Assembly (NCBI RefSeq): GCF_002192415.1 | Contig: NZ_CP021780.1 | Location: forward strand, 1,550,001-1,614,000 | Source: Paenibacillus donghaensis | GTDB lineage: Bacteria; Bacillota; Bacilli; Paenibacillales; Paenibacillaceae | Reading direction: 5' to 3' | DNA: 64,000 nucleotides | Part shown: positions 6,705 through 40,592 of the stretch, in pieces | Layout: every line of letters begins with the position of its first letter | How positions within the stretch are numbered: the stretch's first letter is position 1 | Position numbers and translations under genes: made by a program | Notes under the pieces: model-generated | Seen by the model: the letters and a program-made list of their open reading frames with translations, nothing else | What the model was told of the DNA's origin: nothing | The model's database searches: none

Positions 6705-7750
6705 GTGTGGATTATGAAGAGTTGATGGAGCGGGCCTATGAGCTGCCGGAGGGACGGGCCAAGCTGGCTGTGCTGGAGGAGGCGGTTCGTGCAGCGGATA
6801 GTCTAGGTGACATCGATGCCGGTTATGAGGCGCGGTCCGAGATTGTTGAATCGGGAATTTTTAACGGATATCCGATGAAGGTGATTGTGGCCTTCTCCTG
6901 GCAGCTGGGGCAGTTTGACAAGGAGCCGGAGCGCTTCGATGATTTCACGCTGCTGTGGTCCTACAAGTGGATTGCGGATAAAGTGGCCTGTTTCCCGGAG
7001 GTGCCTAGGGAGCAGATCGATAATCTGCTGGAGGATCTCAAGAAACGGTATCTGGAGTTTGGCTATAACGAGCGCACTTATTACTATTATAAAAGCTTGG
7101 TGCATGGCCAGTACGGGGAATTGGAGGAATCCGCCCGGTATATGGAGAAGTTCAAGAGTATGGACGCGGATGAAATGGCAAACTGTGATGCCTGCGAACA
7201 GAACCGCGAAGTAGAGTTTAATGTGATGGTCGGCCGAGATGAGCTTGCCTTGAAGGCCGCGAGGCCAATTCTTGACGGAACAATGACCTGCGGAGAGGTT
7301 CCGCATGTCACCTTGTCGATGTTGCTGCTGCCGATGCACCGCTTGGGCCAGGCGAAGGAAGCGGAGAAGATCCAGAAACAAGGCTACCGCCTGATCAAAA
7401 CGAACCGTGAATTTCTGCTGCAGATCGGGGAGCATATCCGCTATTTGGCTCTCACCGACCCGTTCAAGGGGCTGGAGCTGTTCGAGCATCATGTGGCCCA
7501 TTCGCTGGATCACGAGAATCCTTACGACATTATGATGTTTAATGCCTACTCCGCGAGGCTGTTCAGACAGCTGGCTAAGGAGACGGTGGCCTTTCAGGTG
7601 AAGCTGCCCGCTGGCTATCCGCATCCCGAGCACGCGACGGATGTAGCCGCCCTTGCTGCATATCTTCAGCAGCAGGCGTTGTCCACAGCCACGCGGCTGG
7701 ACCACCGCAATGGCAACAGCTATTATACCGATTTGGTGAATAGCTTATAA
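6701..7750 (+). CDS. Helical-repeat (TPR-like) protein coupled to the Hsp90 gene
   Basis: 349 aa, predicted cytosolic and almost entirely alpha-helical, with repeated Tyr/Leu-rich helix pairs of TPR spacing and no signal peptide or membrane span. No catalytic motif is visible. The ATG shares ATGA with the end of the Hsp90-like gene, so translation is coupled. Eukaryotic Hsp90 uses TPR co-chaperones, and by analogy this could deliver clients or regulate the chaperone, but that is inference. A terminator follows about 120 bases downstream. Confidence 0.7.
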   Translation: MSVDYEELMERAYELPEGRAKLAVLEEAVRAADSLGDIDAGYEARSEIVESGIFNGYPMKVIVAFSWQLGQFDKEPERFDDFTLLWSYKWIADKVACFPEVPREQIDNLLEDLKKRYLEFGYNERTYYYYKSLVHGQYGELEESARYMEKFKSMDADEMANCDACEQNREVEFNVMVGRDELALKAARPILDGTMTCGEVPHVTLSMLLLPMHRLGQAKEAEKIQKQGYRLIKTNREFLLQIGEHIRYLALTDPFKGLELFEHHVAHSLDHENPYDIMMFNAYSARLFRQLAKETVAFQVKLPAGYPHPEHATDVAALAAYLQQQALSTATRLDHRNGNSYYTDLVNSL

Positions 7751-12287: not shown

Positions 12288-12934
12288 ATCCCTATAATAT
12301 CCCTGACAACGCTATTATCACTGTAGCCGGAACGGTGGGTGTCGGTAAATCGACGCTGACTGGCGCTTTGGCTTCACGGCTGAACTTTCAGACCTCGCTG
12401 GAGCAGGTGGACCAGAACCCGTATCTGGAGAAGTTCTATCATGATTTCGAACGCTGGAGCTTCCATCTTCAGATCTATTTCCTAGCCGAGCGCTTTAAGG
12501 AACAGAAGAAGATGTTCGAGCTGGGCGGCGGCTTCGTGCAGGATCGTTCGATCTATGAGGACACCGGTATTTTTGCCAAAATGCATGCGGATCAGGGCAC
12601 GATGTCCCCAACCGACTACCATACCTACACCAGCCTCTATGAGGCTATGGTAATGACACCTTATTTCCCGCATCCCCATGTGCTGATCTATATTGAAGGC
12701 AGTCTGCCGTCGATTCTGACCCGGATTCAGGAGCGCGGGCGCGAGATGGAGATTCAGACAGATGTCTCCTACTGGGAGCATATGCATGGCCGGTATGCAG
12801 AGTGGATCAATGGGTTCAACGCTTGCCCGGTGCTGCGCTTAAACATTGATGATTATGATGTCAACGATCCGGCGTCGATGGCCGATATCCTGATGCAGGT
12901 GGGGCGGACGGTTGGAGATCGGGCGTTAGTTTAG
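12284..12934 (+). CDS. dck: Deoxynucleoside kinase, deoxyadenosine/deoxycytidine type
   Basis: 216 aa with P-loop GTVGVGKST and the DRSIYED motif typical of the dAdo/dCyd kinase branch; an RERGREME lid segment lies near residue 150. It completes the deoxynucleoside salvage pair with the upstream kinase, with which it overlaps by four bases and is co-translated. The N-terminal halves of the two proteins are clearly paralogous. Confidence 0.88.
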   Translation: MNPYNIPDNAIITVAGTVGVGKSTLTGALASRLNFQTSLEQVDQNPYLEKFYHDFERWSFHLQIYFLAERFKEQKKMFELGGGFVQDRSIYEDTGIFAKMHADQGTMSPTDYHTYTSLYEAMVMTPYFPHPHVLIYIEGSLPSILTRIQERGREMEIQTDVSYWEHMHGRYAEWINGFNACPVLRLNIDDYDVNDPASMADILMQVGRTVGDRALV

Positions 12935-12965
12935 TATAAATAGTGTAAAAGAAAAGCGTTAAAGC

Positions 12966-13018
12966 AGCCTCAGAGGAGGCTATTTCATATAACAACAGCA
13001 CCTTATGGTGCTGTTGTT
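12966..13018 (+). terminator. Two tandem hairpins ending the dgk-dck operon
   Basis: The first hairpin is AGCCTC/GAGGCT (12966-12981). The second is AACAACAGCACC/GGTGCTGTTGTT (12991-13018). Confidence 0.7.
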
Positions 13019-13154
13019 GTGTGATTATGATCAGAATGTAAACGCATACGCAGGAAAAGGCAAGAATCGCAAGAAATATTAAGAGAATGTGAAATGGGCG
13101 GCGGCTATCGCGGAATATCGGGGGGAACGGGAGAATATCAGCGATTTTGAAAGT

Positions 13155-13182
13155 TTAAAATTGGAATAATATGCGTTATGAT
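13155..13182 (+). promoter_or_regulatory. Promoter candidate for the structured RNA
   Basis: A good -10 (TATGAT, 13177-13182) lies 16 bases after a weak -35 (TTAAAA, 13155-13160) and just ahead of the first hairpin of the RNA. Confidence 0.5.
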
Positions 13183-13187
13183 AGAGA

Positions 13188-13685
13188 CATCACCAAGGAA
13201 GCAACAAACATTCCTCAGGTGATTCGCTCAATCCTTAAATTAATTCATTAGTTTAAGAGAGGAGAGAAACCGATGTACCAGCGTTAGCGAAACATTCCGG
13301 AATCGGAGGCAGGATATCCAGGGCGAGGTGACAACGTCCTTGGTGCAGACCGTGGGAATGTGGGAACTAAGGCCAACCGTTGTTCAAGCGAAACCGGAGT
13401 CATCAGGAAAGTCCCATTCAAAGCAAGAACAAGCTTGCTAAGAAGGAGTGCGATTCCAGTGGAAAAGGTTAGCGAAGCGTACGAATACGAGGTCTCACAC
13501 TAGGAGAGGCGTCCGTGATAACGCAGCTCGTGAACATCGTGTACGCGGGAAATCAGCGGAAAAAATGAATAACAATACCGATGTGTAGCACATGGTTTGT
13601 TGCTGGAGGAAAAGATCGAATTGAATAGTTTAATTAAACCATAAATCCCCGGGCCTTAGACGTTAAGGTTACGGGGATTTATGTG
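13188..13685 (+). ncRNA. Candidate large structured RNA, about 490 nt, class not recognised
   Basis: No ORF of note lies on either strand, yet the interval is dense in pairing. Stems seen: TCACC..GGTGA with AGGAA..TTCCT inside (13190-13222); GAATG.TGGGA with TCCCATTC (13356-13365 with 13412-13419), enclosing a domain; a perfect AGCAAG/CTTGCT hairpin (13422-13439); GCGTAC.GA with TCGTGTACGC (13477-13484 with 13537-13546), enclosing another domain; AACAATACC.ATGTG with CACAT.GGTTTGTT (13571-13602). It is framed by a promoter candidate and a strong terminator. I could not match it to tmRNA, RNase P, SRP or 6S RNA. OLE-like RNAs or a group II intron remnant are possible, but no domain V-like hairpin was found. 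Confidence 0.6.
13643..13685 (+). terminator. Intrinsic terminator of the structured RNA
   Basis: AAATCCCC (13643-13650) pairs with GGGGATTT (13673-13680), with an inner CCTTA/TAAGG stem and T-rich tail. It can also serve the convergent gene at 13730. Confidence 0.85.
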
Positions 13686-13729
13686 TTTTTGTGCAGAAAA
13701 ATACATACAGCGGCAGGCTTCTCAGCTAA

Positions 13730-14485
13730 TCAGGTGTACTCGAAGCAGATTACCGCCTTGGCCAGCTCCCGGTCATAGAACAGATACACATTGTCGGCAG
13801 CGGCCGCTTGGAAGTAATACCCCGTAAAGCTGCCGATATAAGTGAGGACCTCGCCCTTGTTGTTCTTGGGCACATGGATCAGATTGGTTTGCTCGAACGC
13901 CAGCTGCTCTCCCAGCGTATCCCCGTATTCACTCATATGTTCCTGCCAATCCTCTGACTGAAAGCCTATATCATCCAGCACACCATTGATCTCTGGATAG
14001 GAGTGTTCCCAGCCCATAATGTGCTTGACTGTGAGATCCTGAACCAATTCATCGACGGATGCGAAATCTGAGTCATAAGTGGAATAGGGGTAGATACTAT
14101 GTATTTTCTGATACAATTGCTTGCGCAGCTCGTAATCCTCGCTGTTGAGGGCATAACCTTCCTCCTGATCTTCGCCGTATTCCTCCTCATTGATCCGGAA
14201 GTAATTCCAGTCCGCCTCGAATTTGTATTTGCCTTCAATCACATCGAAGCCGATCATATCCTCCTTGCAGAACGCGGTATGATAGGCCTGGGTCTCATCG
14301 CCCAAGCTGACGCCGTAGATCTCCTTGACTGACACGAAATGCACCCACTCATCCCGCTTCGGAAAAATACACTGCAAATTCACCGAGCAGATCGGCAAAA
14401 AATGCTTACGGTGGTTCTCGATATCATCATAAAATACATCCTCGTAGGCGGGGAAGGGTTTAATTAGATGCTCAGGTATGTTCAT
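13730..14485 (-). CDS. Hypothetical cytosolic protein
   Basis: 251 aa, acidic, with no signal peptide or membrane span, and not recognised. It is rich in Tyr, Asp and Glu, has a Trp-containing acidic middle and ends with a beta-rich segment (YIGSFTGYYFQ, VYLFYDRELAKAVICFEYT). Its general look recalls SMI1/KNR4 (SUKH) type immunity or partner proteins, but no diagnostic motif supports that. Stand-alone, convergent with the structured RNA. AAGGAGG lies upstream of the start. Confidence 0.6.
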   Translation of the reverse strand: MNIPEHLIKPFPAYEDVFYDDIENHRKHFLPICSVNLQCIFPKRDEWVHFVSVKEIYGVSLGDETQAYHTAFCKEDMIGFDVIEGKYKFEADWNYFRINEEEYGEDQEEGYALNSEDYELRKQLYQKIHSIYPYSTYDSDFASVDELVQDLTVKHIMGWEHSYPEINGVLDDIGFQSEDWQEHMSEYGDTLGEQLAFEQTNLIHVPKNNKGEVLTYIGSFTGYYFQAAAADNVYLFYDRELAKAVICFEYT

Positions 14486-15883: not shown

Positions 15884-15980
15884 GCTTTGTCGAACCGCCG
15901 GCTGCTCTCTGGGCCGGTGGTTTATTTAAAATATCAGAAAGTATAAGTTCTACCTGATCTTTTATCCTTCTATTTCTCGC

Positions 15981-16020
15981 AGAAACGGTTGCCGTCCCTA
16001 AAAGGACGGCAACCGTTTCT
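15981..16020. terminator. Perfect 17-bp hairpin, bidirectional terminator
   Basis: AGAAACGGTTGCCGTCC pairs exactly with its complement across a six-base loop. It lies between convergent patB and nagA. Confidence 0.75.
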
Positions 16021-16074
16021 GCTTGTTAAATAAGAATCTATATGTTTTAGGGGGAGCGAACCGTACCCCTTTAT

Positions 16075-16250
16075 TTAGTGGGTGCTCCATTCGATTGTTC
16101 CCCATGTCGATGATCATTGTCATCCGGGGCAATACGCTGCGCCCCACTTCGGCCAGCGCCTGGTGGGGTGAGCGTTTCGGTCGAAATCCATACGAGTTCG
16201 GGCGGAGGTCTACCTGAAGTCTGCCTGAAGATATCTTCCGCAATCAGTTG
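16075..16250 (-). pseudogene. Fragment of a group II intron reverse transcriptase
   Basis: On the minus strand a short frame reads RPNSYGFRPKRSPHQAL followed by AEV, the conserved RT0/RT1 segment of LtrA-type intron proteins, then a roughly 15-residue tail ending at IIDM. No start, no catalytic YADD and no maturase region remain, so it is a relic. It occupies most of the 15.9-16.35 kb gap between patB and nagA. No intact group II ribozyme was found near it. Confidence 0.65.
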
Positions 16251-40309: not shown

Positions 40310-40592
40310 ACAAAAGCTATGAAGAGAAAGAGTACCACGGTGATGTCTTTTAACAGAGAGCCCCGGTTGCTGAAAAGGGGTAAAGAATAACTTTGGGAAT
40401 ATGGTCTCTGAGCTGCGCATCGAACCCTCATGTGGTTGTAGACTGCGCCGGAACCCGCACCCGTTACAGTGCTAGGGTATAAACGCGGGAAACGCGTCGT
40501 ACCTGAAGAGGTTAATGCCGCAAGGCATTAATAAAATTGGGTGGTACCACGTGAGCGCAGGCTCTCGTCCCTTTGGGATGAGGGTTTTTTTG
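40310..40592 (+). promoter_or_regulatory. T-box riboswitch with methionine specifier
   Basis: A Stem I region with AAGAGAAAGAGTA and the AGAGAGCCCCGG..GCTG distal motifs leads to GGGAATATGGTCT, where ATG (40401-40403) occupies the specifier position, matching Met-tRNA. The T-box core GGGTGGTACCACG is at about 40539-40551. A terminator hairpin with seven Ts follows (40562-40592), competing with the antiterminator. Uncharged Met-tRNA would permit read-through into the synthetase gene. Confidence 0.9.

Follow-up and report, generated by a model that had tools for sequence, protein, structure and literature searches.

A tandem-module RNA with start-site signals, conserved in Paenibacillus and patchily in other Bacilli

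Described systems and the class of the RNA

Among the bacterial RNAs that stand alone, OLE, ROOL and GOLLD are large and structured, with lengths of several hundred nucleotides. CsrB and RsmZ, also stand-alone RNAs, carry many copies of a ribosome-binding-site-like motif and titrate CsrA. The lambda bar minigenes consist of a Shine-Dalgarno (SD) sequence, a start codon, one further codon and a stop. The same two-codon arrangement is found in the axe-txe mini-ORF, a short leader in cis (PMC8708949), and dual-function small RNAs that encode small peptides (PMC5521070) combine a regulatory-looking RNA with short frames.

The RNA described here lies in a 64,000-nucleotide stretch, the window of this analysis, of the Paenibacillus donghaensis genome, a single contig of 8.54 Mb. 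It resembles OLE, ROOL and GOLLD in being large, structured and stand-alone, but unlike them it is a tandem of modules of about 75-120 nt with start-site signals, and it has no Rfam match. With CsrB and RsmZ it shares the presentation of many ribosome-binding-site-like motifs on a stand-alone RNA, whereas each of its modules is a large conserved hairpin that has a start codon and an internal loop with almost no variation, and the motif ANGGA is not enriched. From the axe-txe mini-ORF (PMC8708949) it differs as an array in a covarying RNA without a constant downstream gene, and from the dual-function small RNAs in having several frames, mostly of 2-19 codons, whose peptides are unconserved between clades.

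A sequence-only reading of the locus had proposed a large structured RNA of unrecognised class, and this is supported by the Rfam comparison, by homologues beyond the species and by strong covariation. Comparison with all Rfam models, which it had suggested as a check, was run with Rfam 15, and no family matched the RNA at the gathering score; at E up to 10, the region 12950-13900 gave only three matches, all at E 0.12 or worse. OLE, ROOL and GOLLD were without match at the gathering score, at E up to 10 and, in ten loci from distant clades, at E up to 1, so that the idea of an OLE-like RNA found no support. The same held for tmRNA, RNase P, SRP RNA and 6S RNA, with no covariance-model match to the RNA at the gathering score or at E up to 10. 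ARAGORN detected no gene in the whole window, and the sole Rfam match among the ten distant-clade loci was an unrelated cspA element. The only gathering-score match within the window is a T-box leader at 40310-40575 (+ strand, 114.2 bits). Titles and abstracts in the literature yielded no paper describing the RNA, and passages of PMC11109978 hold no description of it. For Paenibacillus riograndensis, PMC5670726 describes novel intergenic transcripts that include 27 small RNAs, three annotated and the rest of unknown function; these unassigned RNAs may include a homologue of the window RNA. We regard the RNA family as solid; its members are large and structured and have no entry in Rfam 15.

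On its 5' side, the RNA is flanked by deoxynucleoside kinase genes (Pfam dNK) ending at 12934, and on its 3' side by a gene without Pfam family on the opposite strand (13730-14485). The earlier claim of a TATGAT promoter and a strong terminator was borne out, as a sigma-A type promoter and a terminator bracket about 495 bases (Table 1). Judging from these signals, the RNA would be transcribed as drawn, probably from a start near 13187-13190. Homologues keep the promoter, the body and the terminator as one block. A TGAA-type box lies just 5' of the -35 in 34 of 60 oriented loci, as counted by hand with a loose pattern and without a null, and takes the form TTTTGAAAG in the genus of the window and TCTGAATA-TTTACA in other clades. 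Across several families, a TCTGAATATTTACA box is fused with the -35. By eye, this box approaches the CodY consensus, from which one position deviated in every case inspected, and CodY control is not claimed. Blastn finds the RNA as a single copy in its own genome. Further downstream, an inverted repeat at 15968-16038 gives weak microRNA-model scores on both strands; beside it lies an 81-aa frame (15998-16243, - strand) with GFRPKRSPHQAL and no Pfam family, which by eye resembles a remnant of a group II intron reverse transcriptase.

Table 1. Features of the RNA locus, in window coordinates
Feature	Position	Strand	Details
Promoter, sigma-A type	13145..13182	+	TTTTGAAAG box abutting -35 TTTAAA (13154-13159), 17-nt spacer, -10 TATGAT (13177-13182)
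RNA (predicted), ~497 nt	13187..13683	+	from folding and conservation as one unit in relatives
5' hairpin	13189..13223	+	ATCACC (13189-13194) / GGTGAT (13218-13223); kept in Paenibacillus homologues
Module A	13253..13372	+	R2 75.1 bits, E 1.3e-15
Module A parts			SD 13257-13266; AUG 13273; AGCGAA 13286-13291; P2 ACATTC 13292-13297 / GAATGT 13356-13361; GGGAA 13362-13366
Module A micro-ORF	13273..13287	+	ATG, MYQR*, 4 codons
Module B	13439..13557	+	R2 90.8 bits, E 1.1e-19
Module B parts			SD 13441-13448; GTG 13459; AGCGAA 13471-13476; P2 GCGTAC 13477-13482 / GTACGC 13541-13546; GGGAA 13547-13551
Module B micro-ORF	13459..13503	+	GTG, MEKVSEAYEYEVSH*, 14 codons and stop
3' micro-ORF	13605..13644	+	SD GGAGGA 13605-13610; TTG 13621; MNSLIKP*; stop 13642-13644 within terminator 5' arm
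Intrinsic terminator	13640..13691	+	CATAAATCCCC (13640-13650) / GGGGATTTATG (13673-13683), then T-run; strong

At the 21 loci compared, neighbouring genes are shared within subclades and different between them, and a constant partner gene was rejected, as no cluster is constant. The commonest cluster, presumably beta-lactamase/serine-hydrolase-like as judged by eye, occurs near 11 of the 21 at variable distance and side. Nor does the RNA keep a constant place upstream of a related same-strand gene at these loci, as a cis-acting leader (riboswitch, T-box or attenuator) might. A leader or attenuator of a downstream gene is thus highly improbable: the 3' micro-ORF of the window does overlap the terminator with its stop as in classical attenuation, but the next gene of the window lies on the opposite strand and the neighbours vary between clades. 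A phage or plasmid origin was likewise dropped, since the window RNA has no match in phages or plasmids; two distant homologues gave no match in plasmids, and two module patterns none in viral contigs.

Modular build, distribution and covariation

The window RNA contains two copies of one unit of about 120 nt. Two models were used in the searches: R1, built from the second domain with 23 sequences and no A modules, and R2, built from 34 diverse modules. Module A was among the 34 in R2; R1 also detects it, at 30.8 bits, and matched the first domain in several genomes. Beyond modules A and B, the next best R2 match in the own genome reaches only 16 bits. Relatives carry one to five modules, and most genomes of one genus (g37) have arrays of 3 to 5 modules by R1. 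Five is the highest accepted number, since two of six R1 matches in one genome (G215) are halves of a single module, split by a long insert and recovered as one 226-nt match. The tandem repeat, as well as the start codon and SD signals of each module, is what the sequence-only reading missed.

The blastn search for homologues that this reading had also suggested was positive in 47 of 150 genomes and 2 of 30 genera, well beyond the species; relatives in the collection are mostly Paenibacillus. R1 matched 70 of 245 genomes in the family sample and 96 of 296 in the order sample, and R2 matched 22 of 398 in the class sample, 6 of 299 in the phylum sample and 12 of 41 in family f62, where a compact one-module form is present; all these tallies may hold false matches near the limit. 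The blastn count and the R1 and R2 sample counts, apart from f62, include the own genome. Four weak matches at E 4e-4 to 6e-3 are probably chance, namely G696 (L169) and G517 (L185), which by eye appear to lie inside coding sequence, G1067 (L181), in a T-box-like leader by eye, and G845 (L182), which is short. At least one match of the class sample is probably chance, and the two matches of the phylum sample outside the class are weak. In the family of G536, 1 of 3 genomes was positive, and in that of G622 2 of 11, the second probably by chance. Searches across more than 40 genomes used stricter filters, at which weak true matches are lost. A pattern scan of an 84,980-species collection returned 37 stretches, titled Paenibacillus/Paenibacillaceae (29), Saccharibacillus (3), Cohnella (2), Fictibacillus (2) and Fontibacillus (1). 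As judged by covariance model, the RNA is conserved across Paenibacillus and patchily through Bacilli, in several families of the class.

Homologues measure about 415 to 590 nt, apart from one of 864 nt (L030) with a long divergent insert in place of the first domain, and five short members (L024, L026-L029) are without the core of that domain. Together with L044 of the same genome (G024) and with G080, G046, G085 and G029, L030 forms a sublineage of mutually similar core sequences. In one relative (L031, G003:C15) the RNA occurs twice, near 7244-7556 and, some 7 kb away, near 14083-14217; next to just one of these copies R1 detects a second module.

For the structure, we take covariation in relatives as the decisive evidence. 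The whole RNA, terminator included, is more stably folded than its dinucleotide shuffles (none of 100 as good, z -3.60); the two modules, folded separately, do not exceed shuffles in stability (z 0.46 and -0.01). Both R2 and the covariation count are based on an alignment of 34 of the 43 representatives. Over the helices P1, P2 and P4 of these 34 modules, 90.8% of cells are paired, compared with 79.0% in shuffled and at most 54.4% in slid alignments, with 80 double-change cells versus 24.1 shuffled and a covariation score of 0.450 versus 0.217. P2 has 99.5% of its cells paired and double changes at 4 of 6 pairs, and is fully paired in 146 of 155 unique modules. P4 shows double changes at all 8 pairs and 87.4% of cells paired, figures that were helped by leaving out nine representatives, namely three short modules, four whose inner hairpin diverges, one of atypical length, and L097_5025, which lacks a start codon. 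Covariation in this alignment therefore supports two helices, P2 and P4. A further helix P1 (UUCC/GGAA), suggested by eye and by RNAalifold, scored -6.1 for cognate and -6.4 for swapped partners in a partner swap; it is not supported by covariation and is kept only as possible, which counts against the ribosome-binding reading below as regards the presentation of the start site. By eye, the internal loop resembles 23S rRNA (GGUAGCGAA) and helix h18 of 16S rRNA.

Start-site signals and short reading frames

The sequence-only reading had seen no ORF in the region. A long ORF is indeed absent, but three short frames sit in a conserved start-site context. With modules aligned on the loop and xTG sought at four offsets, a start codon follows a purine-rich SD in 152 of 155 unique modules (ATG 111, TTG 38, GTG 3, CTG 0) and is missing in three; the 155 leave aside 12 unique hits that did not fit the core regex and those without the closing GGG. 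The 43 representatives, below 82% identity, give ATG 34, TTG 8 and none 1, with purines at -15 to -11 in 41 of 42. Throughout the 155, positions -17 to -11 are mostly purines, and C stands at -3 and -2 in at least 154.

Pairing of the region -22 to -1 with the 16S tail has a median of -17.1 kcal/mol in 100 unique module upstreams (varying from -12.2 to -22.3); for 266 control ORFs, each taken at its best start, the value is -11.8, and for shuffles -7.7 kcal/mol. The module median is attained by 7.9% of these controls, which are mechanically found frames of at least 250 codons, some perhaps not genes. The 16S 3' end GGATCACCTCCTTTCT occurs at nine places of the genome. When only -10 to -1 were shuffled and the SD half was kept, all 42 of the 42 representatives examined paired less strongly, the mean changing from -16.6 to -12.4, and thus the 16S complementarity reaches past the usual SD. 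Conservation of GAUUCC could be due to a fold rather than to 16S pairing.

Of the 152 started modules, 66 have a two-codon frame with the minigene layout; of the other frames, 5 have four codons, 75 have 8-19 and 6 are longer. All these counts, like those of the modules and of the 3' micro-ORF below, come from related sequences and do not represent independent events. Window modules read 4 and 14 codons. Two-codon frames occur in 16 of the 43 representatives (stops TAG 15, TGA 1), a stop at codon 3 is not conserved, and several compact members read start-ACN-stop by eye.

Besides the module frames, there is a 3' micro-ORF that stops at the terminator. With a pattern that accepted any xTG start, it was detected in 74 of 78 loci, with a length of 5-10 codons and most often 7. 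The better count is that of 64 unique frames, since some of the 78 loci were fetched twice from the same place. These start with TTG (42), ATG (15) or GTG (7) and never with CTG, 49 have seven codons, and the stops are TAA (32), TAG (23) and TGA (9), which are constrained independently because they overlap the terminator stem. On direct reading, four loci outside the 74 have frames as well, namely L005 (MHTGVNT), L099 (MNSRFGKR), L138 (MKSKQHYK) and L188 (MYEKKKE); the parser had found no frame in the first three and no module in L188, and for a few loci (e.g. L049, L016, L106) the frame recorded is an alternative that overlaps the expected one. When the 90 nt before the terminator were shuffled for the 64 unique cases, the whole test succeeded in 9.1%; with only the part from start to stem shuffled it succeeded in 19%, and CTG made up 12% of shuffle hits (138/1159). 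Shuffling the bodies of 36 frames with less than 60% identity left them open with a stop exactly at the end in 5.2% of trials on average. L124 (MNSNFNT) and L096 (MNSNININT) differ by two whole codons. The 3' peptide shows no conservation between clades.

A structured non-coding RNA, acting as scaffold or oligomer like the ornate RNAs and with a merely incidental start-site look, would account for the covarying helices, the nearly invariant loop, the two-domain or multi-domain build and the 3 of 155 modules without start codon. It is nevertheless rather unlikely, as two features are hard to explain without translation: the starts of the modules, and likewise those of the separate 3' frame, switch among ATG, TTG and GTG but never CTG, and frames that stay open over an almost constant length stop at the terminator far more often than in shuffles.

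In family f62, three loci (L189, L191, L192) have a 5' micro-ORF upstream of the module, with a long SD (AAAGAAAGGAG or similar) and the product MKQFFLSGASP* or variants. Expression of micropeptides from a polycistronic mRNA (e.g. MKQFFLSGASP*, MxxVSEAY, MNEESIV*), with the RNA structure regulating their translation, would fit frames that have SD and stop, and in f62 the 3' frame indeed reads M-x-(E/D)-E-x-I-x in several genomes and the 5' frame MKQFFLSGASP, MKRFFSAGASP and MKQFFLAGALP in three. Yet the sequences differ between clades, other f62 5' frames read MEMHVYLVGCA, MKVDIMLTGNT and MEYKILKKET, many module frames are only two codons long, and the residues VSEA fall on the structural motif GUNAGCGAAGC, all of which makes a peptide-coding purpose improbable.

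A possible engagement of ribosomes

Starting from what sequence comparison establishes, i.e. the family, the module, P2 and P4, the conserved start codon and SD, the 16S complementarity and the variable neighbours, we infer ribosome binding and a physiological purpose. Our preferred but tentative reading is that this structured RNA stands alone and acts in trans, and that its repeated unit serves to bind ribosomes. Each module carries an extended SD able to pair with much of the free 16S rRNA 3' tail, an asymmetric internal loop (RAUG-n6-GGUWAGCGAA facing GGGAA) whose 5' strand includes the start codon, and the covarying hairpin P2/P4 just 3' of the start site. The array might then capture initiating ribosomes (30S or 70S), which would be either held at start sites over-paired to the 16S tail or cycled through minigenes, and translation would be lowered or redirected in some condition set by the promoter. 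Ribosome capture or minigene cycling appears to fit best because the RNA stands alone, the number of start sites varies, the micro-ORF peptides are unconserved and the 16S complementarity is over-long. Its more specific form, a ribosome trap in which one to five super-Shine-Dalgarno modules sequester 30S subunits or drain initiation into minigenes, is possible, if somewhat doubtful. In this form, complete pairing with the 16S tail would reach nearly to the start codon and would be expected to interfere with normal placement in the P site.

In PMC8708949, two-codon minigenes are described as potentially toxic via peptidyl-tRNA release, with a strong SD raising toxicity and a Thr codon (ACT) previously classed as toxic. 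The minigene of that study acted in cis, not in trans, and did not inhibit growth, which by analogy would count against a trans-acting reading.

The SD purines also make GGA motifs that could bind CsrA. The modules might accordingly be a sponge for a CsrA-like translational repressor, mimicking its operator at real ribosome-binding sites and titrating it. A stand-alone RNA with repeated modules of variable number would suit such a role, as would the GGA count of the window RNA, 17 against 11.6 for shuffles, of which 4 in 300 scored as high, and a GGA 5' of the start in 40 of 43 representatives. Because sequence cannot separate SD from GGA, the sponge stands as a rival; it is, however, unlikely, given that ANGGA, the more complete CsrA-type motif, shows no enrichment (2 vs 3.9), that the conserved GGUWAGCGAA/GGGAA loop is left unexplained and that the own genome has no further strong module copy as a cis target.

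Titles and abstracts in the literature gave no bacterial counterpart of a decoy-start-site RNA. Even the family claim alone adds a large structured RNA without an Rfam 15 entry, present in several Bacilli families and evolving in module number; the residues to mutate are clear, so that its function is directly testable. If the preferred reading is true, Bacilli would have an RNA class that controls translation broadly via decoy start sites.
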